Positions 1,162 through 51,841 of a stretch of 64,000 bases of DNA are shown here, in pieces. Position 1 is the first letter of the stretch; each line of letters opens with the position of its first letter. The stretch lies in the NCBI GenBank assembly GCA_029561455.1, contig JAKQIY010000059.1, forward strand, positions 62,001 to 126,000, in the 5' to 3' direction. This stretch comes from a bacterium (GTDB lineage Bacteria; Zhuqueibacterota; Zhuqueibacteria; Residuimicrobiales; Krinioviventaceae). A program made the translations under genes and the position numbers. A model generated the notes under the pieces. It worked only from the letters and a program-made list of their open reading frames with translations. It was not told the DNA's origin and ran no database searches.

Positions 1162-3183
1162 TTAATCTAAAGAAATTCCTTCTTTCTCAATAACAAACTC
1201 AATATGTAAAAATTTTGCTTTTTCTTTCTTATCACCAATAATAAAATTCCAACGTTTTTCCCAAAAATCAATCATTTTTAAACCACGCTCCAAAATTTCT
1301 TTTGCTGTCCAATTTTCATAATTAGCAATTTGATTTTCTGAATAAGAACCATATCTATAGCCTACCATTGATTTAGGTATGCCCTTTTTTACTTCAAAGC
1401 TTTCATTTCCAAATGATTGATTTTTTTTCTCTGAAAGAGGAACTAAATTACCTAATGAGTTTTTAAGTAACCTCCTTTCTTTATCTGAATAATATTTAAA
1501 CTTTTCAGTCCAATAAGATTTTTTGGAGTTTTGTGGGTAAATGTGTTCAATGGTATAATAATCTCTCTTGTCTTCTCCTTCAGACAAGCCATTATCTATA
1601 AACTGCTCCCAATTTAATTTTTCTCGATAAGTTTTAGTTCGGTTTTTCAAACTAATTTCATATTCGTATAGGAAATACTTTATTCCAACCCACCTATAAA
1701 ACCCAGAATTTTTCATATCTGAAATAATTTGTTCTATATTTTCCTTTTTTCCAATAAAAGAGTTAACAATTTCGTCAATTTCTTTAATTATTTTATCAGT
1801 TGAAAACTCACCTTTTATAAAAAGATTTATCATGTTGAATAATTTTGTTTGATTAAAGTCAGAAATATAAGCATATCTATTAAGCGTTTGAACAAACAAA
1901 TATCGTTCCAGAGATTTTAAGAAAGATAATCTCGTTTGTTCTTTCTTTTCTTTTTCATAAATAGTCATTATTAATGGGGCTACTGTTGTTGCGATTGGTG
2001 ATGGATGTTTATTTAATTTTTCAAGCCAAAATTTTTCTTTTTCAGGTAAGAGACTATGATGGGGATTAAGTAAATGATACCATAGTTTAACCGATTCCTT
2101 TAAACTTTGGACATAATTATATATTTTTTCAATTTTTAGTTCATCTTCCAAGGAAACTTCAGGATTTATTACAGCAATGTTTTTGGGTGTGAATACTTGT
2201 TCTAATAAATATTCCCCTAGCCATGAATTAGAATTGTTTAAATGTCTTCTAAAGCGAATATCCCTTAGTAAACTCTCTTTTGATTGAATAGCATCACTGA
2301 AATATGTTATAAAATGATTGCTAAGGAAAATATCATCATCCAGTATTTTTTCTTTATTTCTACCAAGAAAGTGGTAAATAGATTTCCATCCTTCGTTAAT
2401 TGAAATGCGAAGTTTTTGTTTCTCAAAATCATCTGTCTTGAATTTTGTTGAAAGATAAATCAACCTATTTTTTAGAAGTTCTAAATGTGATAATGGCTTC
2501 CCACGATTATTCATTGTTTCGAATGCAACAAAGACATCAACATCATCTGATATTGAATAAATGTTATAAAGAAAATTTTGTGTTATTTTTTTGTAAAGTC
2601 TTTCTATTTGTTCAAAAGAGAGTTTTTTTAAATTTGCTAAAAAATATTTTTTAGCAAATTCAAGATTGTACGTATATATTGTTTCTTGCACAGGTAAAGA
2701 ACTATCTGTTTTTTCGAGGAAAATATTTGCTTTTAAGAATTCGTAACTAGGATTATCCTTTTCATAACCGAAAAGATAAGACCGTGATATACCTTCATTT
2801 TTAGAATCGTAAATAAATTTTTTTTTAATTTCTTCGGTAGAAGTAAAATTTAATCGAGTATTATCAGGCACGCACTCAACAATTGCTTGAATTAGAATTA
2901 TAGTAGTAGTTAATCTTTGTTGTCCATCAACTACATAATAGGGTGTATAGTTTTTAGAATTAATAATCCACAAATCATCGTACCATTGGTTTACTTGTTT
3001 AACCGGTACCTCTTCTAATGTTAGAACGCCAGTGTAATGGTTTTAATCATTTTCTAGTTGAGTAAGATCATTCCAGAAATCTCGCAATTCTTTTTCTGTC
3101 CATGCAAAGCCACGTTGATAATCAGGGATTCTAAGGAGACGCTCTGTAAAGATTTTTGATATTGACATAAGTTGTGTTTTCAT
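1162..3183 (-). pseudogene. DUF262/DUF1524 (GmrSD-like) restriction protein, broken by an in-frame TAA
   Basis: A single frame runs from ATG at 3181-3183 to the stop at 1162 (about 673 codons) but carries TAA at 3043-3045 (codon 47). The first 46 codons encode a typical DUF262 start (IPDYQRGFAWTEKELRDFWNDL), and the frame resumes as NHYTGVLTLEE. Next come the DUF262 DGQQRLTTT motif (ParB-like nucleotide-binding fold) and a C-terminal DUF1524 HNH-like nuclease segment (EHIYPQ, then NSLGNLVPL). Family knowledge: fused DUF262-DUF1524 proteins resemble GmrSD type IV enzymes that restrict modified phage DNA. A Lys AAA-to-TAA change would explain the break; sequencing error is the main alternative. 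A translated fragment could only start downstream, for example TTG at 2973. The gene is far more AT-rich than its surroundings and lies between Z repeats, which suggests horizontal acquisition. Confidence 0.85.
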
Positions 3184-3658
3184 TTTGTCCTTACTATTAT
3201 GTTGATTTTTTTAATTAAAAAAGGTCTCACTTTATTAAATAACATTTTTACAAATCACCCTCATATTATTTTTGAAATACAAATATCCTTTGTCTATTAA
3301 AGTCTTTTGTTTTATAACTTTAATTGATTTGTTGTAGTAACCTTCTCATATATTTTAGTTTACTAGTACAAAATTTTTCGTTTCACAAAATTAATTAAAA
3401 ATATCAAAATCTGTATTAAATTTTACATCATATAATATACAAGAAAATCCCGCCGCACCCATGTAATAGAAATCCATATCGATTGTCGATAAAAGTAAGC
3501 GAATTTTGCGGAAATATGCAAGAAATATTTTATAAAAGTTATCAGTTTACAGTTATCAGCCGTCAGTCGGGCAGAGTGTCATTGTAGCCCGGTAACTGTT
3601 AGTTGCGCTACAATCAACCGCGAATACACACCAATAAACGCTAATAAATATTCGCGTA

Positions 3659-11767: not shown

Positions 11768-12143
11768 AAGGGAATAGACTTGATATTTACAGGGTGGGTT
11801 TTGGCACACCTTATTGTTATCTTTAAGCTTTATATTTGCCAAGGGAAAAGGGTGCGACTGCAGTGATAACCTTAGAAGTAATGATTACCTACCCTAAAAT
11901 TTTTCTTCAAATACAAAATATTTCTTGCTTTTTTCCGTGAAATTAATTAAATATTGTTGTGGATACGGGGTATTTGTGACCTAGAGATTTGGAGTTTAAT
12001 TTTTATTATACATATTGTTTTTTAACTATTTGAAATCTATTATTTTCAAATCGAAAAATTTGAGGTATAAATTATATTAAAGAATAAAGTTCAGCTTAAT
12101 TTTTTCAACCAAGAATAGTGTTTGGAGTAATTTAAATTGAAAT
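11768..12143. other. AT-rich intergenic region, no gene seen
   Basis: Base composition drops sharply from the alcohol dehydrogenase gene into this gap. I see no ORF with family features, no tRNA-like cloverleaf and no clear terminator. Confidence 0.5.
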
Positions 12144-12602
12144 ATGAAAAAAACTAACCTCATAAAAAAACCACTTAAAGAATTATTTTCTCTGGAGTTA
12201 TGGAAGATTTTAATTCCTGTGCTAATTGCTACTAGTAGTTGGTTATTTAATGAACGAAGTAAAATTCAGTGGGAACAATATAAGAGAAAAGAAGAAAGCT
12301 ATATAGCACTAATAAGAAGTGTTCGTGGATTCTATATCTCAACACAAGACGCAAAACTTAGACTAAAATTTCTAGATCAATTAAATATTTGTTGGTTATA
12401 TGCACCGGATGAAGTTATTGAAAAAGGATATTTATTTTTAGAGACAGTACATAAAGATGCAAAAAAATCTGATCAAGAAAAAGAGACCGCTTTAGGTGAG
12501 TTTATGTTGGCAATACGGAAAGACATATTATCGAGACAAATTTTAAATAAAACAAATTTAAAATCATCAAATTTTCAGCATTTAAAGCCAATTGGACAAT
12601 GA
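12144..12602 (+). CDS. Small membrane-anchored protein of unknown function
   Basis: A 152-residue protein with one predicted transmembrane helix near the N-terminus (about residues 20-38, WKILIPVLIATSSWLF). A charged cytosolic helical region follows, containing FLDQLNICWLYAPDEVIEKGYLFL and a late EKETALGEFMLAIRKDI. I recall similar hypothetical proteins carrying the WLYxPDEVI core but no assigned function. No enzyme motif is visible. GGAG lies about 18 nt before the ATG, so the start is uncertain. It is AT-rich and sits just upstream of the radical SAM-HD gene (158 nt gap), where a membrane component of one system is conceivable but not shown. Confidence 0.65.
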   Translation: MKKTNLIKKPLKELFSLELWKILIPVLIATSSWLFNERSKIQWEQYKRKEESYIALIRSVRGFYISTQDAKLRLKFLDQLNICWLYAPDEVIEKGYLFLETVHKDAKKSDQEKETALGEFMLAIRKDILSRQILNKTNLKSSNFQHLKPIGQ

Positions 12603-12760
12603 TTATTAATAAATAATATTGACAATTTTTCATTAAATTTTCCAAGCTTCAAAATAGTTTTAACCGAAGAAACAGAATAATTTTAATAGTTAGTTGAAAG
12701 TAAACATATTATTGATAATTTTAAATATGCTAAACTACTTTGAATTATGGAGTATCTTTA

Positions 12761-14608
12761 TTGAAAATAACTGAATATGAATTTAGAGAATGTTGTTTTA
12801 AAACTGTTCCAGAAAACGGAAGAAAGCTCGTCTGGGAAATAACGCACAAATGCACCTTCGGTTGTTCTTATTGCTTCCAGACCAAAAAACGTATGGGGAA
12901 TCCTTTGCGAATATTACATCCCGCAGACTTTCGTAAAGTAATCCTAAAAATGGAGGGGCTTCGAATTCAGGACGTACTTCTTACTGGAGGTGAGCTTTAT
13001 TGGGTGCGAGAATCTCTACCCGATGTTTGCGATACACTACGGTCTGCTAATATTTCATTTTCAATATCCACAAATTACATTCATGATATTGATTTTGTTG
13101 AATCCCTATTAGAGCTTCATCCTCGTGCATTAAATATAAGTATAGACCCTCAGTCTACTGAAACGCGAGAGAAAGTTGTTCGTCAACTTGAATGTGTTAA
13201 ACGAATTCTTCATCGATGTGATGAGGAAAATATTCCTGTTAAAGTAACTGGTGTTGTTACATCTGCGTCTTTAATTAATATCGGAACTTATTTATCTGAT
13301 TTATCTTTACTTGTAAAAGAGCATCCCTCTTTTTCAAGTCTTTACTTTACATATCCGCATGATATAGGCTATATTAAATCAGGTGTTAGAGCTAAAGAAG
13401 CCGCTATTCGAAAAAGTTTATTAGATTTAGATGTTCCTTTAGAACTAAATTCTGTAATTCGATTTGTTAATTTTTATCGTTTTAATGCACCACTTCAGTT
13501 GTGTCCAGCAGGGACAAGTATTGTTCATATTGAGCCAAACGGAGATGTTTACCCATGTCATCTCTTTGCGAATTTGCCCAAGGATACATTTTTAATGGGT
13601 AACATATTGAATGACCATATTACAGACATAGACAAACGCTTATCTGACTTTGGGAGTAGGACAAAGGATGCAATCGAAGAATATAAGCTTACAAATGATT
13701 GCAATTCTTGTCGAGTTAAACAAAAATGTGGTGGTGGTTGTCTTGCAGAAGTTGTATCACTTGGTCAACTAATTGAACCTCAATTAGTTTGTAAAAAGAT
13801 TAGACCCCCGATACATCGCGTACTATTTGAACCAATTACAGATGTTCTACCACTCTCATCATCAAAAACCAAAGATCTATCAAGGGAAGAAAGAATAGCA
13901 ATAATGCAATATATTACCGATAACCTGAGTAAAGGACATGATTTGGCCCATGGTCTAGATCATGTTGAGAGTGTTGTAAAATATGCAAGATTTATAACTA
14001 AAGCTGAAGGTGCGGATTTAAGAACCGTCTCAGTCGCAGCTTTCTTTCATGATTTCGAGCCCCGTCGCCAATTGATATTTGAACAGCATACTGAATACTC
14101 TGCACAGACAGCAGTCAAATTTCTTAAAACATTGGGCTTTATGGATGCAGAATTAAATGCCGTATATGAATGTATTGTTAGTTCCTCATACGGTGCTCAT
14201 GAAATAGGTCTTAAGCCAATCTCCTTAGAGGCAAAATGCGTTCGTGATGCTGATTGGTTGGATGCAATTGGTGCACGAGGAATCGCTCGTGTGTTTGCTT
14301 TTGCTGCTGCACATGGTTGTGAAGAACTTGGAAGAGTAGAATGGCCACTTGATCCTCCCCCCAAAAAACGAATGAGTTTAATTGGCCCAGATCCATCTCC
14401 AATATATCATTTTTTTTCAAAACTACTTTGGGTAAGCGATCAAATGGCAACTACAACGGGTCGTTCAATAGCAAAAAAAAGACATGAAATGATGCTTTTA
14501 TTTCTAAGGGCATATAAGGAAGAAATGGACATGTCAACTATGGGTGAGTTAGATGATTTACTTAATGAGGATTGGAGTTTTGTTCCAAGCTCAAATAGAG
14601 ATTTTTGA
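12761..14608 (+). CDS. Radical SAM/SPASM protein fused to a YedJ-like HD hydrolase
   Basis: About 615 residues. The start is taken as TTG 12761 because GGAG lies 8 nt upstream; an in-frame TTG at 12740 is less likely. Residues 31-38 are the radical SAM C-x3-C-x2-C motif (CTFGCSYC), followed by the LLTGGE SAM-binding glycines. A SPASM-like auxiliary cluster region spans about 248-345 (LCPAG, YPCHLF, then CNSC-x5-CGGGC). From about residue 385 an HD domain begins: GHDLAHGLDHVESVV, FFHDFEP, RDADWLDAIGARGIARVFA and a C-terminal FSKLLWVSDQM...RHEMMLLFL. This order is typical of YedJ/YpgQ nucleotide phosphohydrolases. Both metal sites look intact. Known families: SPASM enzymes usually modify peptides or sugars; YedJ-like HD proteins hydrolyse nucleotides. 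The fusion is unfamiliar to me. Confidence 0.85.
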   Translation: MKITEYEFRECCFKTVPENGRKLVWEITHKCTFGCSYCFQTKKRMGNPLRILHPADFRKVILKMEGLRIQDVLLTGGELYWVRESLPDVCDTLRSANISFSISTNYIHDIDFVESLLELHPRALNISIDPQSTETREKVVRQLECVKRILHRCDEENIPVKVTGVVTSASLINIGTYLSDLSLLVKEHPSFSSLYFTYPHDIGYIKSGVRAKEAAIRKSLLDLDVPLELNSVIRFVNFYRFNAPLQLCPAGTSIVHIEPNGDVYPCHLFANLPKDTFLMGNILNDHITDIDKRLSDFGSRTKDAIEEYKLTNDCNSCRVKQKCGGGCLAEVVSLGQLIEPQLVCKKIRPPIHRVLFEPITDVLPLSSSKTKDLSREERIAIMQYITDNLSKGHDLAHGLDHVESVVKYARFITKAEGADLRTVSVAAFFHDFEPRRQLIFEQHTEYSAQTAVKFLKTLGFMDAELNAVYECIVSSSYGAHEIGLKPISLEAKCVRDADWLDAIGARGIARVFAFAAAHGCEELGRVEWPLDPPPKKRMSLIGPDPSPIYHFFSKLLWVSDQMATTTGRSIAKKRHEMMLLFLRAYKEEMDMSTMGELDDLLNEDWSFVPSSNRDF

Positions 14609-14757
14609 CTTTTAGTATATCCCGCGTTCAAATAACAAGTTCAACAGTTTTATATGGAACAAGTATTATTAGTGCGTGGCTTTAATGAACTTTTTACATC
14701 AAAAACGAAAAATATTATATTTATACTAGACACTATTGATTTTTATTAGGAGTGTAT

Positions 14758-15849
14758 ATGTTAAATCTATCTAAATTTTTAAAACCTATTCGAATAAATA
14801 TTAATAATGTTCTACTTGATCCCAATAATCCAAGATTTTCAGAATTAGGAGAGGAATTAATAGTAGTTCCTGAAGCAAGATATGCTGATGAAAAAGTTCA
14901 AGCTAACACTTTTGAAAAAATGAAAGATGATTCCTTCGATGTTAATGAATTAAAAGACACAATAAAAACTATTGGATTTTTACCGGTAGACCGAATTATT
15001 GTAAAAAAATGGAATAGTAAAAATGAAAACGATAAATATATAGTTGTAGAAGGTAATAGAAGGATATCAGCCTTAAAGTGGTTAATTGAATTACACCAAA
15101 TAGGTAAAGAAAATTTTACACCTGAACAGTTGCAAAACTTTTCTCAATTAGATTGTTTATTGTTAGATGATAAACTCGCACCGGCTTCTGCATTTTTGAT
15201 ATTACCTGGTTTAAGGCACGTATCTGGCGTTAAAGAATGGGGGCCTTATCAAAAAGCTAAAGCAATTTTTGTTTTAAGAAAATCTGGTATGTCTCCTCAA
15301 GATTCTGCTCAAAGTTTAGGGTTATCCACACGAACAGCAAACCAAGCATATCGTTGTTACTTAGGTCTTGAACAAATGAAAGCTGATGAGGAATTTGGAG
15401 AATTTGCAGAACCTCAAATGTATAGCTACTTTGAAGAAGCACTTAAAAGACCAAATGTAAAAAAATGGTTAGGTTGGGATGATTCAAAAGAACAATTTAT
15501 AAATTTAAGCAATATAAATGAATTTTTTAGTTGGATGGTCTCAACTGAAAATAATAGTCCCAAACTCCCTGAAGCAAAAAGTGTACGTGAATTAGCTCAG
15601 TTTTTAGATGATGAAAATGCCTTTAAAATTTTTCGATCACCAGAAGGATCAATAAGTAGAGCTTTAGCTAAATATGAAACTGATCATCCAGAGGATTGGT
15701 ATCCGAAAATATTAATAGCAACAGACGCATTAAAATCTTTAACACCTGATATGTTAAGAAATATGGATGAAAAAGAGTTAGAAGCATTAAATCAACTACG
15801 CAATCGAGTAGATTTAGTATTAGATGATCGAAATAAACTTAAAAAGTGA
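14758..15849 (+). CDS. ParB-like N-terminal nuclease/NTPase fold protein
   Basis: About 363 residues from ATG 14758 (AGGAG 5 nt upstream; an earlier GTG at 14752 overlaps that site). The first 130 residues resemble the ParB/sulfiredoxin fold: INNVLLDPNNPRF, then VVEGNRRISALKWL, where E98-GNRR102 occupies the position of the ParB GERR or DUF262 DGQQR motif. A helix-turn-helix follows (GMSPQDSAQSLGLSTRTANQAYRC), then a C-terminal helical region. It lacks chromosome-partition context. The stop overlaps the GTG start of the Mrr-type endonuclease by 4 nt, so the two proteins are made together. A role as modified-DNA sensor for that nuclease is inference. Confidence 0.78.
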   Translation: MLNLSKFLKPIRININNVLLDPNNPRFSELGEELIVVPEARYADEKVQANTFEKMKDDSFDVNELKDTIKTIGFLPVDRIIVKKWNSKNENDKYIVVEGNRRISALKWLIELHQIGKENFTPEQLQNFSQLDCLLLDDKLAPASAFLILPGLRHVSGVKEWGPYQKAKAIFVLRKSGMSPQDSAQSLGLSTRTANQAYRCYLGLEQMKADEEFGEFAEPQMYSYFEEALKRPNVKKWLGWDDSKEQFINLSNINEFFSWMVSTENNSPKLPEAKSVRELAQFLDDENAFKIFRSPEGSISRALAKYETDHPEDWYPKILIATDALKSLTPDMLRNMDEKELEALNQLRNRVDLVLDDRNKLKK

Positions 15850-16583
15850 CAAAAATGTCAAAGCCATCATCTCAAATAATTGTTACTTGGATACTCAATG
15901 AATTATCAAATGATAAGTGGTTACCTTTAAAAGATATTATTTTTGGTATATTAAAAAAAAATATTCAAAAATGGAGCGATTCAAAAATATCAGATTTAGT
16001 AGAAGAAGAGTTAAACCATATTTCTGAGATGCTACGGAATATTTATGCAGATTCAAAATTTAATGGTGAAATCGAATCATTTGAGATAGATAATGAAATA
16101 AATCCTTATATAAGATCAGTTAACATACATGTGTCAGAAATAAAAAAAAAGCTGTATTCTATTGATCCAATTCAATTTGAGCATCTTTGTGTTAATTTGT
16201 TAGAAAAACTTGGTGCTCAGGCTTCAATAACACCTCAAACAAGGGATGGTGGTATAGATTTCTATGCTTTTGAATTTGCTTTTAATTCAGAAATAATTAC
16301 ACCGAAATATTCAAAAATTGTAGTAATTGGTCAAGCTAAAAGATATGCAGAGAATAACCATGTAACAGAAAAAGTTTTACGTGAATTTATTGGCAGTTCG
16401 ATACATAAACTTGAGCAATTTAGAAATGATAAAAAAATATGTGCACTTACACCAGTGTTATATGCGTTTTGGACTACTTCAGAAGTTGAATTTCGTGCAA
16501 AAAAATATGCACAAGATATGGGTATATGGATTATGAATGGAAGTACTTTTGCGGATTACGTTTTAAAATTTAAATTATTATAG
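15846..16583 (+). CDS. Mrr-type restriction endonuclease
   Basis: This 245-residue protein has a C-terminal Mrr_cat PD-(D/E)xK domain: FEHLCVNLLEKLGAQASITP, then GGIDFYAF with Asp138 and VIGQAKRY with Gln163-x-Lys165, the D...QxK catalytic set. The N-terminal 100 residues are helical and may bind DNA or the ParB-like partner. Family knowledge: Mrr enzymes cleave DNA carrying modified bases (type IV restriction). The GTG start at 15846 overlaps the upstream stop (GTGA), and an ATG six codons in is an alternative. A good terminator follows. It is AT-rich like its partner. Confidence 0.83.
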   Translation: MTKMSKPSSQIIVTWILNELSNDKWLPLKDIIFGILKKNIQKWSDSKISDLVEEELNHISEMLRNIYADSKFNGEIESFEIDNEINPYIRSVNIHVSEIKKKLYSIDPIQFEHLCVNLLEKLGAQASITPQTRDGGIDFYAFEFAFNSEIITPKYSKIVVIGQAKRYAENNHVTEKVLREFIGSSIHKLEQFRNDKKICALTPVLYAFWTTSEVEFRAKKYAQDMGIWIMNGSTFADYVLKFKLL

Positions 16584-16678
16584 AATGTAACAATAAATTG
16601 TTAAACAAATTGAATTTTCATTTGCTAAAATATTTTTAAATCAAACTATAATTTTTATCTATCATTCTACAATCACAG

Positions 16679-16705
16679 GCCCGCCTCCCCAGGCGGGCTT
16701 TTTTT
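16679..16705 (+). terminator. Rho-independent terminator of the ParB-like/Mrr operon
   Basis: GCCCGCCT (16679-16686) pairs with AGGCGGGC (16691-16698) and is followed by a T run. Confidence 0.88.
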
Positions 16706-16707
16706 AC

Positions 16708-16777
16708 TTCATATCTACATCCCCTATTTTACCGCAAACACAGCTGTAATCGCTGGGGCAGCGATCAAATCCAGGCC
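16708..16777 (+). repeat. Direct repeat flanking the R-M cassette, left copy
   Basis: About 70 bp starting TTCATATCTACATCCC. It aligns with 18670-18740 in the same orientation. The two copies bracket the methylase/HNH endonuclease genes, and both look like the end of a GH3 gene on the minus strand. Confidence 0.6.
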
Positions 16778-16885
16778 GCGCCGGACGGAAAAAAAGCCGC
16801 CAACATCACTTAATAATCACCTTTTGCAATGATCTTTTGTCCGTCGTTATTGACTATTGACATCAGTTCCTGGGTAATACAAATG
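16724..16885 (-). pseudogene. 3' remnant of a glycoside hydrolase family 3 gene
   Basis: Read on the minus strand, this segment gives QELMSIVNNDGQKIIAKGDY, then a stop and a one-base shift, then GGFFSVRRGLDLIAAP, then AITAVFAVK and a stop. The intact GH3 protein of this window (33261-35462) ends with PDLMSIVNDNGDKIIEAGDF..., GVDLGAAPSVAAVFAVK, so the match covers the last 50 or so residues. It is a decayed gene tail with one nonsense codon and one frameshift; nothing further upstream was recognised. It lies directly left of the R-M cassette. Confidence 0.72.
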
Positions 16886-16967
16886 TAATATATTTGTAAT
16901 ATTTATATTGACAATGATTGCATATTATTTTAATTTACAACAAGTTTATAAAATCCAGGAAATATAA

Positions 16968-17915
16968 ATGAAGGTTCCGCATCCTATACAATATCAGGGC
17001 AGTAAAAGAGCGCTGGCCTCTACCATTCTCCGCTATCTTCCTGATAAATTTTCCGGACTAGTAGAGCCTTTTGCCGGAACTGCGGCCATTTCCATAGCCA
17101 TTGCCATACGGAACCGGTCTAAATCCTATTGGATTAATGATTATAACAAACCACTTGCAGAATTGTTAGAGCTTGTCATAAATTCCCCGGTTGAACTGGC
17201 TGATTTTTATAAAAAACTCTGGAATCAACAGCATGATGATTCCCTGGAGCATTATTATCAGGTAAGAGAGGATTTCAACCGCACACGCGATCCCAGGTTA
17301 TTTCTGTATTTGCTTTCCCGCTGCGTAAAAGGTTCTGTTCGTTACAATAGCGAGGGCCTCTTTAATCAAAGTCCGGATAAAAGACGACACGGAACTCGTC
17401 CCGAAACCATGCGGGAAAATATTCTTGGCGTCTCTTATCTTTTAAAAGGAAAAGCAAAAATAACCTCTCTCGATTACAAACAAGTATTGTTGGAAGTAAA
17501 AGAAGATGATGTTGTTTATATGGACCCTCCATACCAGGGTGTGTGCGGTGACAGGGATTCCCGCTATTATTCTGGTATAGTCTTTAATGAATTTGTTGCT
17601 GCGCTGCAAGATCTCAATGCCCGTAATGTACGCTACGCTGTCAGCTATGACGGACGGACAGGCAACAAGACCTTTGGTGTTCATTTACCGGAGAGTCTCG
17701 ACCTCACTTTAATTGAACTGGAGGCCGGACGTTCAACGCAAGCTACTTTACTGAATAGAGATGATATTACTATAGAATCATTATACTTGTCGCCTCGCCT
17801 TGCAGAGGAAGTTTATGCCTTGCCTCATTTTCATAAACGTCAAAAGACTGAACAACTCGTATTAATGGAGCCCAAAACCGGCTATGCCACACAAATACCC
17901 AAAAAAATTTCTTGA
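16968..17915 (+). CDS. D12-class (Dam-like) DNA adenine N6-methyltransferase
   Basis: This 315-residue protein begins IQYQGSKRALASTILRYLP. The SAM-binding PFAGTAA lies at 34-40 and the catalytic DPPYQG at 186-191, so motif order is X-I-IV, as in alpha-class N6-adenine methylases (MethyltransfD12). No target-recognition domain is identifiable by eye, so GATC or any other site cannot be claimed. It overlaps the following HNH endonuclease gene by 32 nt, an arrangement expected of a type II restriction-modification pair. Confidence 0.9.
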   Translation: MKVPHPIQYQGSKRALASTILRYLPDKFSGLVEPFAGTAAISIAIAIRNRSKSYWINDYNKPLAELLELVINSPVELADFYKKLWNQQHDDSLEHYYQVREDFNRTRDPRLFLYLLSRCVKGSVRYNSEGLFNQSPDKRRHGTRPETMRENILGVSYLLKGKAKITSLDYKQVLLEVKEDDVVYMDPPYQGVCGDRDSRYYSGIVFNEFVAALQDLNARNVRYAVSYDGRTGNKTFGVHLPESLDLTLIELEAGRSTQATLLNRDDITIESLYLSPRLAEEVYALPHFHKRQKTEQLVLMEPKTGYATQIPKKIS

Positions 17916-18603
17916 ACTATGTAACGCTGTTACTGCAAAACGTCCTAAAACTGTCATTGACCATATTTTAAAGTATGGTCATATTACAACAGAAGAAATA
18001 AAGGGAAAATATGGGTATAATCATCCACCAAGAGCAATTCGTGATGTCCGTGAGCATGGCATTACGATTGAAACCTATCGGGTAACCGGTTCAGATGGCA
18101 GAAAGATAGCTGCTTATCGTTTTGGCGATGTAACCAGTAAACAATTCAGAAAACAATCAGGTCGGACTGGTCTGTCAAAAAAGATTAAAAGTTTTCTCAT
18201 CGAGAAATATGGATGTAAATGCTTTATTTATCTTGAAAAGATGGGTGAACCGGAATTACAAATCGACCATCGTATTCCTTATGAAGTGGCGGGTGATGTA
18301 AAAAATGCTGATCCGGATGAATTTATGTTATTGTCCGGTTCTGCAAATCGGGCAAAATCATGGTCCTGTGAACATTGTGAAAATTGGCAGAATAAAAAAG
18401 ATAAAGAAATTTGTCTTACCTGTTACTGGGCATACCCGGAGAATTATTCTCATGTGGCTATGCACCCGGTACGTCGTGTTGATTTGATATGGCAAGGCGA
18501 TGAAATACAACATTATGACAAATTAATGAAAGACGCCAATGATTCGGGACAGACAATTCCGGAATTTATCAAAGAGATAATAGAAAAAGCAATTAACCAA
18601 TAA
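17884..18603 (+). CDS. HNH-type restriction endonuclease (putative type II)
   Basis: This 239-residue protein has an N-terminal winged-helix-like part (VIDHILKYGHITTEEIKGKYGYNHPPRAIRDVREHG is the region 20-55). Its nuclease core includes LQIDHRIPYEVAGD (Asp128-His129), typical of beta-beta-alpha-metal restriction enzymes. Four zinc-type cysteines follow in two C-x2-C pairs (CEHC and CLTC). The gene overlaps the adenine methylase by 32 nt, so it is most likely the partner restriction enzyme. The recognition sequence is unknown. Composition is AT-leaning compared with the genes from 18.9 kb onward. Confidence 0.83.
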   Translation: MPHKYPKKFLELCNAVTAKRPKTVIDHILKYGHITTEEIKGKYGYNHPPRAIRDVREHGITIETYRVTGSDGRKIAAYRFGDVTSKQFRKQSGRTGLSKKIKSFLIEKYGCKCFIYLEKMGEPELQIDHRIPYEVAGDVKNADPDEFMLLSGSANRAKSWSCEHCENWQNKKDKEICLTCYWAYPENYSHVAMHPVRRVDLIWQGDEIQHYDKLMKDANDSGQTIPEFIKEIIEKAINQ

Positions 18604-18669
18604 AATCAAAACAATAAATCCAGTTGCAAGTCAGTCATAAACACTATGGACGCTCCTCCGAAGCCCTGT

Positions 18670-18740
18670 TTCATATCTACATCCCAAACTTTCCCGCAAC
18701 CACACCCGCAACACTCGCGGCGGCGCTAAAACCCAGGGCT
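18670..18740 (+). repeat. Direct repeat flanking the R-M cassette, right copy
   Basis: TTCATATCTACATCCC again begins the unit, and the following 55 bp align with 16724-16777 with substitutions. Minus-strand translation gives LGFSAAASVAGVVAGK, comparable to the GH3 tail. The rest of 18604-18911 holds no gene; a weak promoter could lie around 18813-18843. Confidence 0.55.
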
Positions 18741-18911
18741 TGCAAAATCTAAGTTAGCTCATTCGTAATTCTCAATTCGTAATTGCATTTCTCCATTAGC
18801 TCTCAGATTTTTTTGTAACAATTCATTCCCCCCTGCGTATATCGCATTTAGATGGCATAGAGAGCGCTCATATTTTACAATAAATATTTGAACAACGGAG
18901 GAACTGATCCA

Positions 18912-46341: not shown

Positions 46342-47004
46342 TCAAACCCGTTCCAGCTTTTCCAGCCAGGCATTAAAGTGCGGACATGCCTGCCTTAATG
46401 TTTGCAAGCCAATTTCTTGGGCAATTAACGGCCCATGCAGAGCTTTAGTGTAATCCGTAAATATGCGGATAATTCTTTTAGAAGGCGCGGTATTTACATC
46501 ATCATTTATATCTTCGGGAGTTGCAAATGCTTTTCTGATTTTCTCTAATTCCTGCCTTGGGCCCGGTTTATCATCAAACTGTTTGTTAATCTCGTTAACA
46601 TTCGTAAACAGCAATCCCTCGAATTCATGCTTGACCAGGTTGGCGATAAATCGACGATTGTCGATATCCTGTTGTAATGCAGCTTCCAGTCCGGCAAGTT
46701 TTTCATTGGAATTATTATACCTGACATCCATCCCCGGAAAATCATTGGGCAGGCCATACAAATCCAGCATGGTCGTACAAAAAGCGGCTTGATCCAGCAG
46801 GGAATTCATTATCTCTTTTCTGATTTGTTTATGATAACCATAATTTTTCTCATAGCCCCCTTTGCCTTTTCTTCCCAGACTTCTGTTCGTAGTAATCATT
46901 CGGGGATATAAAAAAACATTGCGAACATTATAAAAAGGTTGCAATACTTGTTTTACAAACTTTTCCTCAGTTTCGCCTTCCACAACAATGTATATCCGAC
47001 TCAT
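46342..47004 (-). CDS. DUF4276 family protein (TOPRIM-like partner of an AAA ATPase)
   Basis: About 220 residues from ATG 47002-47004 (an upstream GTG-type extension to 47037 overlaps the neighbour and is discounted). It begins MSRIYIVVEGETEEKFVKQVL, an acidic VEGETE motif like the first TOPRIM metal site, and has MLDLYGLPNDFPG in the middle, typical of DUF4276. The ATG overlaps the ATPase stop by one base (TAATG). From family context, ATPase-plus-TOPRIM pairs (OLD, PARIS and similar) abort phage infection; the nuclease role here is inference. Confidence 0.85.
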   Translation of the reverse strand: MSRIYIVVEGETEEKFVKQVLQPFYNVRNVFLYPRMITTNRSLGRKGKGGYEKNYGYHKQIRKEIMNSLLDQAAFCTTMLDLYGLPNDFPGMDVRYNNSNEKLAGLEAALQQDIDNRRFIANLVKHEFEGLLFTNVNEINKQFDDKPGPRQELEKIRKAFATPEDINDDVNTAPSKRIIRIFTDYTKALHGPLIAQEIGLQTLRQACPHFNAWLEKLERV

Positions 47005-48095
47005 TACGGTCGTCCCCCGAAAACATTTTTCTCCCACATTTCACCCAGCGAATAATCCTCCAGCCACATTTTCAGTTCCTCGCCGGCCAGTCTTTTAAAA
47101 GTCGATTCGCCGTCGTCATTTCGGTCCACAACAATAATATCCTCCGGTTCGAAATGATCCAGCAACTGCGAAGATTGGGTAGAGATGATCACCTGTGTTT
47201 TATGGCTGACGATTTTGACCAGATCGGCAAAGCGGGCCAGGGCATACGGATGCAGTCCCAGTTCCGGCTCGTCCAGTATAATCGTAGCCGGAGGATTGGG
47301 CTGCAACAGGGCGGTAACCAGGCAAATGAACCGCAGTGTGCCGTCGGATAAATGCCGCGCCGTAAAGGGAAAATCGGAATTCTTTTGCAGCCATTCGAAT
47401 TGGATATTATCTTCATTGCCCGGGATCGGGCGTAATTTAAATTCCTGGATGAACGGCGCAACCAGTTTTACAATATCTAGGATTTTATTATAACTTTCAG
47501 GATGCTGCTTTTGCATGGCATATAAAAACGCCGCCAGGTTGCCGGCGTCCGGTTGCAATTTTTCATTATTATTAATCGCTTGAATTTTTTTTACATCTGC
47601 CAAGTCGCCGGTGTCATGGAAATGATAAACAGTCCATCCTGAAATTGAAGAACAAACATCTTGATTCCATTTTTCATACGGGCCATTAGTTGTAAGGGAT
47701 TGCAGTTGTGATTCTTCATAACCTATAAGATTAGGTGTAAAGAGTTGATTGTTTTTCGAGTAATAAATTGTTTCAGATTCAATAATAAAACTATCCTTTT
47801 CTGTTGGTACCAAATTGAATGAATAACTATGAACATCAAAATAAAGATCAATATAAACTTTTTTAGTCACTTTTGAGCCCATATATACAAATTGTTCCGC
47901 CCCACCTTTTTTCTTGATATAGTATTGCAACCTCAACTTGACAATATTATTCAACAGCTCAAAAAACTGCACAAAATTACTTTTCCCGGCGCCATTCGGC
48001 CCAACCAGGATACTCAAGTTGTTGAGTTCAAAATCTTCAAGCTTTTTAATTGATTTGAATCCATGTATAGATATTTTTTTAAGTGGATATGCCAT
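47004..48095 (-). CDS. AAA family (OLD/SMC-like) ATPase
   Basis: This 363-residue ATPase begins ISIHGFKSIKKLEDFELNNLSILVGPNGAGKSNFVQFF, with Walker A at about 32-39. The middle region is lid-like and variable. The late HLSDGTLRFICLVTALL signature and ATIILDEPELGLHPYAL Walker B/D-loop follow. This order is typical of AAA_21/AAA_15 ATPases coupled to TOPRIM or HNH effectors. It is translationally coupled to the DUF4276 gene. No other partner gene lies upstream (48096-48227 is noncoding). Confidence 0.9.
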   Translation of the reverse strand: MAYPLKKISIHGFKSIKKLEDFELNNLSILVGPNGAGKSNFVQFFELLNNIVKLRLQYYIKKKGGAEQFVYMGSKVTKKVYIDLYFDVHSYSFNLVPTEKDSFIIESETIYYSKNNQLFTPNLIGYEESQLQSLTTNGPYEKWNQDVCSSISGWTVYHFHDTGDLADVKKIQAINNNEKLQPDAGNLAAFLYAMQKQHPESYNKILDIVKLVAPFIQEFKLRPIPGNEDNIQFEWLQKNSDFPFTARHLSDGTLRFICLVTALLQPNPPATIILDEPELGLHPYALARFADLVKIVSHKTQVIISTQSSQLLDHFEPEDIIVVDRNDDGESTFKRLAGEELKMWLEDYSLGEMWEKNVFGGRP

Positions 48096-48227
48096 TTATT
48101 GCCTCGGAGATAAAAGTATAGTTTGTATAAATATATAAAATGTAGGGAAATAAACAATTAAATATTCACAGGAACAGTGAATTTATTATTAAAAGGATAA
48201 AATAGGAATGAAAGAAGGAAAATAAAG

Positions 48228-50183
48228 TTACTTAAACATACTAAAATCAGCCTCAGCTTGTTTTAATTCTTTTATTAAAAATGGACGCTTTATATCTATT
48301 TCTTTATATTTAATACTTGCTTGACTATTTAAATTATTCAATAAAGTGATATCTTTACGAATATCTTCTTTCAGTTTAATTTTTAAATCAATCATCTTTT
48401 TATTCAATGAATCAATATACTGTTTGGGAATTGGTTTTTTTGGATCATAGACGAATTCTTCTTTACATGTTTCTTTCCAAATAAGTAATATATTACAAAG
48501 ATTAATACCAAAACCAGGTATTTGAAGAATATCTAACTGGTTTACATCAGCAGCTGTTTCAATCCCATAAGATAAAAGAGTTGCCTTTCGATTTCTACTA
48601 ATATTATAAATGAATGCATTTGAAAGCATTTTAGTTTCCAAAAAAGAAACCATTTGAATATCATATCGTTTATTTTCCAATATTTGTAGTTCTTTTTTAT
48701 ATTCAGATTCAATATTAATAAATCTATTATAATTATAAAGAAGCTCCTTTTTTGTAGTAGTATATGTTTTGTTATAAGAATTTACTAATTCAACTAAGGT
48801 GCTGTAAATAGCTTTATTCTTTTTTTTAGATTCGTTATATCGAGATTCTCTTTTATCACGTTCATTAATATATTCATCTCTATATTTTCCCCTAGAAAAT
48901 AATTTTAAACCTACAATAAAACCACCAAAAATAAATAAAAAATTTTGAGAAATAAACGCAATAATCAGACTAAAAATTATTGTAACTATTCCAAAAAGAA
49001 ATGACAACCTTGGAAATTTCATCATTGGAGGAATACTTTTTCCAATTTCAATAACAATCCCATAGGATTCATCTTCCTTAATTATAAAAGGAACTTGTTT
49101 GAGTTGGTCAATAGCATTTTTATAAGCCGCAGCATCTTCAATTGAAAGATCAATAAATTGATTGATTGTTTTATAAACAAAAAAGAATACACCAAATTTA
49201 TTAATAAAAGTACACCAGGGACAAGCCGATAAATGATTTGGATACTTATGATTTTTTTCGTTTCTACAAGTAACAATAGTATTAAGTAATTTATTTAATT
49301 CTGATATCCAATATTGCTCTGTTGGTCGGGATTTGTTTTCAGAAGAACTTTTTGAGAATGCTATCTCAAATAGCTCTGCTAACGTTTTTGGAATAAGTGA
49401 AATCGGTATTGAACAAGGTGGAGGTTGAATGCCTAAAGATGGCGCATTTCTACTAAAAGCATATAGATAATGTCTTATTAATTCGCCATTATCTAATGAA
49501 TTAATAGTATTATTCGATGAAAAACCTGCAAAAGGGTGCCTCCCCATAAAAAGAAGTTGAAAAATCAATACTGCAAGTCCAAATAAATCATGATTAGTAT
49601 TACGTATTAACGAAGTTAAATTTTTCCCTTGCAATTCAGGGGGTGTATAGTGCACTACACCAACTTTACAAATAAAATATTTGTTATCAGTTGAAGGAAT
49701 TTGATAAGAGTCACAATCTATTAATTTAACTCTAGCATCGTCGCAGACAATAAAATTCTTTTCGTTGACATCGCCAAGAACAATTCCATGAGAATGCAAA
49801 GTATAAAATGCATAAACGAGATTTCGTGCAACATAAATTAAGAATTCCCATGTTGCATGTGGTAATAATTGCTTGCGAGATTTAGGGCCATATACTTCAT
49901 GTAATTCATAGCCTTTAAAGTAAGGGATTAAAATACCTTGGGGTGTTAGAGAATTATTAGTGTAAATTAATGCTTCAGGCCATGATGCTGTATTAGAAAG
50001 TTGAATCGTTTTAATTGATATCATGGATCGAAGTTTCTGCTCATGTTCTATACTCAATTTATTGTGGTAAATTTTTGCAACATAATTTGGCATGTTACAC
50101 ACAGTTAAAATATTACCTTCACCACCTCGTCCAATTTGCTTTCCGAGGATAAGATTCCGCCCATCATTTAAATGAAAATTCAT
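48228..50183 (-). CDS. TerY-P triad protein kinase (YegI-like)
   Basis: This 651-residue protein has an N-terminal kinase domain (1-310): glycine loop GKQIGRGGEGNI, the VAKIYH lysine, catalytic loop HSHGIVLGDVNEKNFIV (GD in place of the usual HRD) and metal-binding DCD (LIDCDSY). One or two transmembrane helices lie near 395-440 (LSFLFGIVTIIFSLIIAFISQNFLFIFGGFIVG region). A coiled-coil region follows, then a C-terminal helix-hairpin-helix segment (YGIETAADVNQLDILQIPGFGINL). Family knowledge: it is the kinase of the TerY-phosphorylation triad with YegK- and YegL-like partners. It overlaps the phosphatase gene by 4 nt. AT-rich. Confidence 0.88.
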   Translation of the reverse strand: MNFHLNDGRNLILGKQIGRGGEGNILTVCNMPNYVAKIYHNKLSIEHEQKLRSMISIKTIQLSNTASWPEALIYTNNSLTPQGILIPYFKGYELHEVYGPKSRKQLLPHATWEFLIYVARNLVYAFYTLHSHGIVLGDVNEKNFIVCDDARVKLIDCDSYQIPSTDNKYFICKVGVVHYTPPELQGKNLTSLIRNTNHDLFGLAVLIFQLLFMGRHPFAGFSSNNTINSLDNGELIRHYLYAFSRNAPSLGIQPPPCSIPISLIPKTLAELFEIAFSKSSSENKSRPTEQYWISELNKLLNTIVTCRNEKNHKYPNHLSACPWCTFINKFGVFFFVYKTINQFIDLSIEDAAAYKNAIDQLKQVPFIIKEDESYGIVIEIGKSIPPMMKFPRLSFLFGIVTIIFSLIIAFISQNFLFIFGGFIVGLKLFSRGKYRDEYINERDKRESRYNESKKKNKAIYSTLVELVNSYNKTYTTTKKELLYNYNRFINIESEYKKELQILENKRYDIQMVSFLETKMLSNAFIYNISRNRKATLLSYGIETAADVNQLDILQIPGFGINLCNILLIWKETCKEEFVYDPKKPIPKQYIDSLNKKMIDLKIKLKEDIRKDITLLNNLNSQASIKYKEIDIKRPFLIKELKQAEADFSMFK

Positions 50184-50944
50184 TTATTGAAATCTCTCCA
50201 AGCAAAAAAGATAGTCTTATCATCATCAGTTCTATTATTCACTTTTTCTGAATTTAAGAACATTCTAAGATTTTCTGTAAGATTTAAATCATCTGATAAA
50301 TTAAAGAAAGAATTAAAAATTGGTTCAAAAAAACCTTTATGTGGTGCTTTTATAGAAAAATCTAGTATTAAGGATTGAAGTCCATCAGTAAAACCTGCTA
50401 CTGCAAAAATTGGTTCTGTAACTTTTATAAATTGTAAATATTCAAACATATCAGGTGAAGTAATAAATACAGTTTCATTTGCAAATTCACCTATATGAGG
50501 CCACGTGATGGCTTTTGTACCTTCATCTGTTTTAATAACCCAAGCTCCATCGCCAATCTGAAAAAAAACTGATGCTTTGGAAGAAAGGAATGCTACTAAT
50601 AATGTACAAGAAAATTCTTTTAAATTAATACGATTTTCAGCAGCAATATTAGATAACAATTGAGTTGTCTTTCCAATCATTTCCTTTGCATAAGATACAT
50701 CAAAGTATGATATATCAATTTTTGACGATAAAATATTACTGATTATATTTTCAACTGCTATTATTGCTCCAAGTTTTGAATGGATTGCACTACCGGCTCC
50801 ATCTGAAATTCCAATTATTAAAAATTCTTCATCTCCATTATTAAATGTTTTATAATTACAATAATCCTGACAAGATATTGATTTTCTTAAATGTGAAGTA
50901 CCAATAACTGATGAATATAATTTATGCCACACATTAATCCTCAT
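50180..50944 (-). CDS. TerY-P triad PP2C-type phosphatase (YegK-like)
   Basis: This 254-residue PP2C-like phosphatase has the early SISCQDYCNY motif, where the Asp is a metal ligand, and IIGISDGAGSAIHSKLGA, the second metal-binding DG. Later come GDGAWVIKTDEGTKAI and VAGFTDGLQSLIL. These residues match the variant PP2C family found in TerY-P triads. It overlaps the VWA gene upstream and the kinase downstream by 4 nt each, so the three are co-translated. It probably reverses or balances the partner kinase. Confidence 0.88.
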   Translation of the reverse strand: MRINVWHKLYSSVIGTSHLRKSISCQDYCNYKTFNNGDEEFLIIGISDGAGSAIHSKLGAIIAVENIISNILSSKIDISYFDVSYAKEMIGKTTQLLSNIAAENRINLKEFSCTLLVAFLSSKASVFFQIGDGAWVIKTDEGTKAITWPHIGEFANETVFITSPDMFEYLQFIKVTEPIFAVAGFTDGLQSLILDFSIKAPHKGFFEPIFNSFFNLSDDLNLTENLRMFLNSEKVNNRTDDDKTIFFAWRDFNK

Positions 50945-51630
50945 ACTGTAACTTCTGCCCAGCCGGTTGGGCCAGTAGGATTCTCAAGTGGTACAGAATC
51001 TCCTGGTTTTGAGCGTGATACTTGTTGCTGGGAATTAGATAACCAGGAAAATAAATCACAAAATCTCAATCCTTTTAATTTCAAAGGTGGTCGTTTTTTT
51101 GATAATTGTGATAGTATCTCCATATTTGCATTTTCAACTCCAACAGCAAAAAACATAAAAGCTCGGTTGTTTTCACCATGCATTATTCGTTCTACAGCGT
51201 CAGTCCATATAGGTTTATTCATATCAGTAGGCTCGCCATCAGTTATTAGAAAAATCCAGGGTCGAAAATATTTTATACCATTTTGTTGATAATCATGCTT
51301 TCTTATATCTAAGAGATTCAATCCCTCAATTAATGCTTGTCCCATAGGGGTTTCTCCTTGTGCTATTAAAGTTGGGGGTACAAACGAATCTGCAGTAGAA
51401 AAGTCATTGACGATATTCACTGATCCGCCGAAAGTAACAATTGCAATTTCTACACGTTTTTTTGCAAGTTCATCAGTAACTAATTCTTCCTTATATTTTA
51501 AAATTCCATTCTGGAGTTCCTGAATAGGCTGGCCACTCATTGAACCAGACACATCTAATAATAAAATACAAGGACAACGTGGTTCGGGGTTGTCTACAAA
51601 AGATGTATCACCGAAAGGGATTTGTTCCAT
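50941..51630 (-). CDS. TerY-like von Willebrand A protein (YegL-like)
   Basis: About 229 residues from ATG 51628-51630; GGAGG lies 8 nt upstream, while an in-frame start at 51687 lacks a site. The VWA MIDAS motif is CILLLDVSGSMSG (DxSxS), with the distal Thr in GETPMGQALIEGL and the Asp in ITDGEPTDMNK. Family knowledge: TerY proteins use the metal site to bind partners in tellurite/stress and anti-phage systems. It is the first gene of the triad. A TTAACA-ATTC-TGTTAA palindrome lies 67-82 bp upstream (51697-51712) and could be regulatory. Confidence 0.9.
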   Translation of the reverse strand: MEQIPFGDTSFVDNPEPRCPCILLLDVSGSMSGQPIQELQNGILKYKEELVTDELAKKRVEIAIVTFGGSVNIVNDFSTADSFVPPTLIAQGETPMGQALIEGLNLLDIRKHDYQQNGIKYFRPWIFLITDGEPTDMNKPIWTDAVERIMHGENNRAFMFFAVGVENANMEILSQLSKKRPPLKLKGLRFCDLFSWLSNSQQQVSRSKPGDSVPLENPTGPTGWAEVTV

Positions 51631-51841
51631 ATTGAAATCCTCCAATAATATTATAAGTTTATAATAACTTACTATTGACAAATACATATTAAAACTTTAA
51701 CAGAATTGTTAAAAATAAAAAAATATTAAGTAAAAAATTCATCTTCCCAAGTCGCATCACTCCATTTTCTCAATAACTATTTACCAAATTTCTTACATAT
51801 ATGCAAGAAATATTTCATTTTTCCCAACAATCAATTTCCCC

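Follow-up and report, generated by a model that had tools for sequence, protein, structure and literature searches.

Radical SAM enzymes and HD phosphohydrolases are known partners in the biosynthesis of oxetanocin A, where OxsB (radical SAM) and OxsA (HD phosphohydrolase) cooperate in trans, and OxsB is inactive when a semi-permeable membrane parts it from OxsA (PMC13331322). In another HD family, YpgQ has been described as a mononuclear Mn enzyme that hydrolyses both NTPs and dNTPs, with H29, H58, D59 and D124 as its metal ligands (PMC8177086). Here we describe a gene in which a radical SAM domain, a SPASM domain and an HD domain are carried by one polypeptide. It lies at 12740-14608 (plus strand) of the window, by which we mean the whole stretch of 64,000 nucleotides of bacterial DNA that was analysed. 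No radical SAM/SPASM-HD fusion was found in the literature. The initial annotation went further, knowing of no described system that joins these components; this has to be narrowed, since OxsB and OxsA do act together, albeit in trans and as separate proteins. The fusion is a rare, genuine domain combination in a composite defence island; we class it as an orphan enzyme and not as a proven new system of defence.

Layout of the locus

The fusion is the second of four intact ORFs (12144-12602, 12740-14608, 14752-15849 and 15846-16583), and the ORF list confirms that all lie on the same strand. They are also AT-rich, as had been claimed: GC is 28-35% across the block vs about 40-55% in most adjoining intervals, and GC3 is 0.16-0.24 vs 0.59-0.68 in the flanking ADH, HlyD and FtsX genes. 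What fails is the statement that housekeeping genes bound the block on both sides, as a type II restriction-modification (R-M) pair comes next on the right. It is made of a Dam-family N6-adenine methyltransferase (16968-17915, plus strand; PF02086, 1.2e-34; PADLOC MTase_II, 1.7e-70) and a type II restriction enzyme with an HTH_39 N-terminus (17884-18603, plus strand; PADLOC REase_II PDLC03566, 1.7e-55; HTH_39, 4.6e-5), whose genes overlap by 32 bp. A terminator-like hairpin followed by a T run (16677-16700, plus strand; 10-pair stem with 7 GC pairs) stands after the nuclease gene that ends the block, and so between that gene's pair and the R-M pair. An imperfect direct repeat of 68 bp (74%) has one copy on each side of the R-M pair, at 16708-16775 and 18670-18737, and is possibly a trace of its insertion.

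All these genes are contained in a segment (11768-18887) that is located between an Fe-ADH gene and an HlyD-type gene and is absent from a congener, G037 (same genus). There, the HlyD gene (16899-17918), with two FtsX genes beyond it, comes directly after the ADH gene (L117 18231-19379). The flanks are shared, with 73% identity for Fe-ADH and 84% for HlyD. None of the genes between ADH and HlyD matches any gene in G037, and nucleotide alignment of the flanks with G037 finds no homology inside the segment until just upstream of HlyD. Because the flanking genes are adjacent in G037 and the intervening ones unmatched there, about 7 kb was either gained in this genome or lost in the congener. As the segment that the congener lacks holds both an R-M pair and a ParB-like/PD-(D/E)XK pair, the defence-like setting proposed at first is borne out.

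The first ORF of the block (12144-12602, plus strand) encodes an orphan protein of 152 residues. It had been called a membrane protein, for which a hydrophobic stretch near its N-terminus is the sole basis; it matches no Pfam, NCBIfam, PADLOC or PHROG family, and no relative was found in plasmids, in 81 genomes of the phylum or in viral contigs.

Two further defence-type loci were observed elsewhere in the window. On the minus strand, an AT-rich block (47004-51687) carries an AAA ATPase of HEC-01A type (8.4e-142); its protein-kinase protein, PP2C phosphatase and vWA protein together resemble a TerY-P-like triad. Also on the minus strand, a GmrSD-type restriction gene (1162-3210; GmrSD_N and GmrSD_C) is interrupted by one in-frame stop codon, its N-terminal piece lying upstream in an unchanged frame.

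The radical SAM/SPASM half

Depending on the TTG chosen as start codon, the fusion is 622 residues long (from 12740) or 615 (from 12761). The sequence GGAG at 12749-12752, eight bases ahead of the second TTG, suggests that translation more likely begins there, at residue 8; with that start, C38 of our numbering becomes the Cys31 of the initial annotation. The radical SAM domain (12836-13252, plus strand, residues 33-171; Pfam PF04055, 3.7e-13) carries the CX3CX2C motif at C38, C42 and C45, three cysteines that are invariant in the A5 alignment. It is followed by a SPASM domain (13502-13792, plus strand, Pfam residues 255-324; PF13186, 1.5e-7; TIGR04085, 9.5e-14). Its seven cysteines are complete (C255, C273, C321, C324, C330, C334 and C351) and follow the pattern CX9-15GX4C-gap-CX2CX5CX3C-gap-C, as C255-x12-G268-x4-C273, C321-x2-C324-x5-C330-x3-C334 and C351. 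The Radical_SAM, SPASM and HD Pfam matches all exceed their curated cut-offs, as does TIGR04085. The first reading of intact radical SAM and SPASM cysteines is therefore upheld with full sets, and the protein belongs among the SPASM-domain radical SAM enzymes by both its CX3CX2C motif and its SPASM cysteines. Codon usage is similar in the two halves of the fusion (GC3 0.216 and 0.240), which argues for one coherent gene.

Placing this half within the superfamily is less straightforward. The best family is PHROG 1802 (1.7e-23), and no plasmid match was found at 1e-8. Among the curated NCBIfam models, the best scores come from peptide-type maturases (mycofactocin, 8.9e-16; SCIFF; StsB; PapB), all of them sub-threshold, and MoaA (50 bits) and viperin models score below threshold too. 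The named SPASM maturase equivalogs (mycofactocin, SCIFF, PqqE and others) reach at best 58 bits vs a cut-off of 265. The AF2 model is poor (pLDDT 50), and its weak fold matches are nearest to CteB (a sactipeptide enzyme), PqqE and EpeE. Given these sub-threshold scores and the poor model, the half seems to fall in no named subfamily. No convincing precursor-peptide ORF was found in the gaps around the fusion.

The HD half

The C-terminal half is an HD phosphohydrolase domain of YpgQ/YedJ type (13907-14530, plus strand, residues 390-597; PF01966, 6.2e-8 over residues 406-509). Among solved structures, those closest to it in sequence are Lin1889 (PDB 3b57, 1.8e-24) and YpgQ (5dqv, 1.6e-22). Its AF2 model, built from 27 sequences, reaches a pLDDT of 84 and superposes on YpgQ-ADP (5dqw) with a Z score of 20.1 and an rmsd of 2.6 over 184 residues; the YpgQ/YedJ family as a whole scores Z 18.6-21.4, and the next rows about 13. 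All four ligands of the mononuclear metal site (H, HD, D) are kept, and those of YpgQ (H29, H58, D59 and D124) would map to H408, H437, D438 and D505.

Two positions depart from the family. S411 stands in for the Arg of HxxxHxxR, which 79 of the 80 relatives retain. W506 replaces the Arg of DADRLDA, retained in 77 of 80, a count biased by a scan pattern that allowed only R or W. Both arginines are a matter of conservation in the relatives rather than of a proven requirement. Because S411 and W506 stand in place of near-invariant arginines, canonical dNTP hydrolysis by this half looks doubtful; its substrate use may differ, with NTP hydrolysis changed or lost. The YedJ-type assignment made at first consequently stands for family placement, by sequence, fold and ligands, but not for a canonical active site. 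The pattern DADWLDA returned chance matches only. At L104 5241-6179, a stand-alone HD relative is joined to a DUF3795 domain on its N-terminal side; this HD family thus does combine with other cysteine-bearing domains.

A single instance of the fusion

Searches of about 1,800 genomes from seven phyla, of plasmids and phages, and the viral scans turned up no second fusion. It is absent from the 81 remaining genomes of its phylum and, at E <= 1e-34, from about 1,700 genomes representing six other phyla. These six sets, labelled by phylum from the titles of their seed loci, comprised 395 Bacteroidota-type, 301 Chloroflexota-type, 349 Pseudomonadota-type, 249 Bacillota-type, 207 Planctomycetota-type and 204 Verrucomicrobiota-type genomes. 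Thirteen genomes of mixed origin gave stand-alone HD relatives and no fusion, tblastn against plasmids and phages gave only separate radical SAM or HD matches, and a contig search gave no fusion among the best 80 of at least 590 matched stretches. The search works, as the fusion query recovers itself and stand-alone HD relatives, with the limit that very diverged fusions could be missed. A Rosetta-stone test of the DNA flanking 80 stand-alone HD relatives (as much as 10 kb on each side, 1.32 Mb in total) found no radical SAM/SPASM gene nearby. In viral contigs, hits to peptide patterns and to two CGGGC-gap-GHDxxxH patterns proved on inspection to be chance matches, none of them a fusion.

The ParB-like/Mrr pair

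Downstream of the fusion, a ParB-like protein of 365 residues (14752-15849, plus strand) has an N-domain of PDC-M38A/PD-Lambda-5_A type (PADLOC PDC-M38A, 1.9e-52, a match spanning the first half of the profile; phrog_3694, 2.1e-29) and is only weakly matched as ParB by NCBIfam (5.6e-4). Its stop is overlapped by 4 bp (GTGA) by the start of a gene for an Mrr-type PD-(D/E)XK nuclease of 245 residues (15846-16583, plus strand; Mrr_cat, 2.3e-14), whose RDGGID...GQAK motif is common to the partners found in G068, phages and plasmids. In G068, from a different family within the class, a ParB-like relative (3.1e-39, 33% identity) is likewise overlapped by a downstream Mrr-type gene. The ORFs listed for 14 kb around that pair include no radical SAM fusion, no gene for the 152-residue protein and no methyltransferase, and scans of the whole G068 genome found neither the fusion nor the 152-residue gene. 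P2-like phages (Wphi, the P2 record and 12474III), a Pseudomonas phage and Persicobacter also have a ParB-like protein followed by one with the nuclease-motif variant DGG(I/L)D...Q-x-C. The same order is seen more weakly in Neorhizobium; in Bradyrhizobium it is absent, the next gene there being a further ParB-like one. None of the phage and plasmid loci with a ParB-like/PD-(D/E)XK pair carries the fusion.

A ParB-like gene and then a nuclease with DGG(I/L)D...Q-x-(K/C) is thus what positions 14752-16583 contain, in the same two-gene order as the known PDC-M38/PD-Lambda-5-type ParB-like and PD-(D/E)XK genes. The pair is a module in its own right, independent, mobile and restriction-like. One difference lies in what comes after it: in P2-like phages a cytosine methyltransferase follows, whereas here and in G068 none does. 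The initial annotation had proposed scoring how often the fusion's neighbours co-occur across genomes; conserved co-occurrence of the four genes is not seen, as a ParB/Mrr-type pair stands without the fusion or the 152-residue gene in G068 and in the phage and plasmid loci.

The phage loci deserve mention in their own right. In P2-like and Pseudomonas phages (L130 228-3266, L131 3980-7016, L132 96-3266 and L133 3983-6950), the ParB-like, PD-(D/E)XK-like and cytosine methyltransferase genes form a cargo block that looks like an R-M-like system, and no description of it was found in the literature. On a Bradyrhizobium plasmid (L127 3803-7001), at least two, and probably three, PDC-M38A/ParB-like genes stand in tandem.

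A proposed role for the fusion

What, then, might such an enzyme do? Our best explanation, offered tentatively and with confidence a little short of even for the whole of it, is that the locus is a defence island, composite and laterally acquired, in which at least three cassettes are independent of one another and the fusion is an orphan bifunctional enzyme. The cassettes would be the fusion gene (with or without the 152-residue gene), the ParB-like/Mrr-type nuclease module and the type II R-M pair. By analogy, the fusion is probably one OxsB/OxsA-like enzyme acting on a phosphorylated small molecule. Its radical SAM/SPASM half would use a 5'-deoxyadenosyl radical to act on a small substrate that is phosphorylated and nucleotide-like; its HD half, as a mononuclear metal phosphohydrolase, would take phosphate or pyrophosphate off the substrate or product. 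Covalent joining would hold the intermediate local, much as OxsB needs OxsA nearby. That both halves share a substrate, that it is a nucleotide, the order of the steps and the biological role are all put forward conditionally; against a shared substrate, a single instance of the fusion is known, so neither conservation nor co-occurrence backs it.

A rival reading takes the SPASM half as a peptide or protein maturase, in the style of RiPP or anaerobic sulfatase maturation, with the HD domain in an accessory phosphohydrolase role or a regulatory one. A complete set of seven SPASM cysteines typifies peptide maturases more than nucleotide enzymes, so a peptide substrate is a serious rival here; the peptide-type maturases at the top of the NCBIfam scores and the low-confidence fold likeness to CteB, PqqE and EpeE point the same way. 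Nevertheless, we judge this reading unlikely: the named-maturase matches are all far under their cut-offs, MoaA and viperin models score too, and neither the gaps nor the island show a transporter, a leader-binding domain or a plausible precursor ORF. Could the fusion instead act in defence by itself, independently of its neighbours, making or destroying a nucleotide by way of a viperin-like product and NTP hydrolysis? The island setting, an HD family that includes an NTP hydrolase and the score of residues 31-176 with prokaryotic viperin models (2.9e-12) would suit such an enzyme. However, that score is no better than the one for MoaA and reflects only the shared radical SAM core, the HD active-site Arg is replaced and, to our knowledge, viperins have neither a SPASM nor an HD domain, which makes this distinctly unlikely. 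The stronger claim, that the fusion founds an unrecognised class of single-polypeptide anti-phage enzymes, in which the radical SAM/SPASM half alters a nucleotide and this product, or else NTPs, is hydrolysed by the HD half, we hold to be highly improbable.

Equally improbable is one four-gene anti-phage system, as entertained at first, uniting the 152-residue membrane protein, a nucleotide-altering fusion, a ParB-like sensor and an Mrr nuclease. The genes are indeed contiguous, on one strand, similarly AT-rich and all within the segment that the congener lacks. Yet ParB-like/Mrr-type and ParB-like/PD-(D/E)XK pairs do without the other two genes in G068, P2-like phages and plasmids, and for this reason a joint system is unsupported; moreover, the intergenic gaps are 137 and 143 bp vs the 4-bp overlap inside the pair, and GC3 is unequal (0.22-0.24 in the fusion vs 0.16 in ParB/Mrr). 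Independent cargo, the alternative that the initial annotation had allowed for, fits better. A private and recent fusion that arose by accident in mobile DNA, possibly inert and never selected as a two-step enzyme, is in turn very unlikely: a second instance appeared in no search and the HD arginines are replaced, but the 622-codon frame is open, every cluster and metal ligand is retained and both halves have common codon usage.

If the preferred reading of a covalent radical SAM-HD enzyme is right, the fusion would be a one-protein counterpart of OxsB/OxsA and would reveal how dephosphorylation is linked to radical chemistry. Should its substrates in the defence island also be nucleotides, a SPASM enzyme would be added to the few radical SAM proteins known in defence.

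Comparison with known enzymes

With prokaryotic viperins (pVip), the likeness is confined to the radical SAM core and is generic to the superfamily; the fusion scores 36.8 bits on NF038283 vs a cut-off of 180 and falls outside that family. With MftC, SCIFF/CteB and PqqE it shares the CX3CX2C motif and the full SPASM cysteines, but it lies far under the equivalog cut-offs, has no precursor or pathway genes in view and bears a C-terminal HD domain. YpgQ, YedJ and Lin1889 share with its HD half the fold, the four metal ligands and about 30-38% identity over ~200 residues; the fusion differs by S411 and W506, and its HD domain sits behind a radical SAM/SPASM half. Finally, OxsB and OxsA offer the nearest precedent, combining a radical SAM enzyme with an HD phosphohydrolase, a (d)nucleotide substrate and a need for proximity (PMC13331322), and the fusion resembles them in logic only. 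They are separate proteins, OxsB being cobalamin-dependent and OxsA having its own tailored HD site. Because no cobalamin domain is matched in the fusion (Pfam) and its HD family is different, it is no member of the OxsB/OxsA type; it brings together in one polypeptide a SPASM domain, in place of the cobalamin domain, and an HD domain of the YpgQ family.
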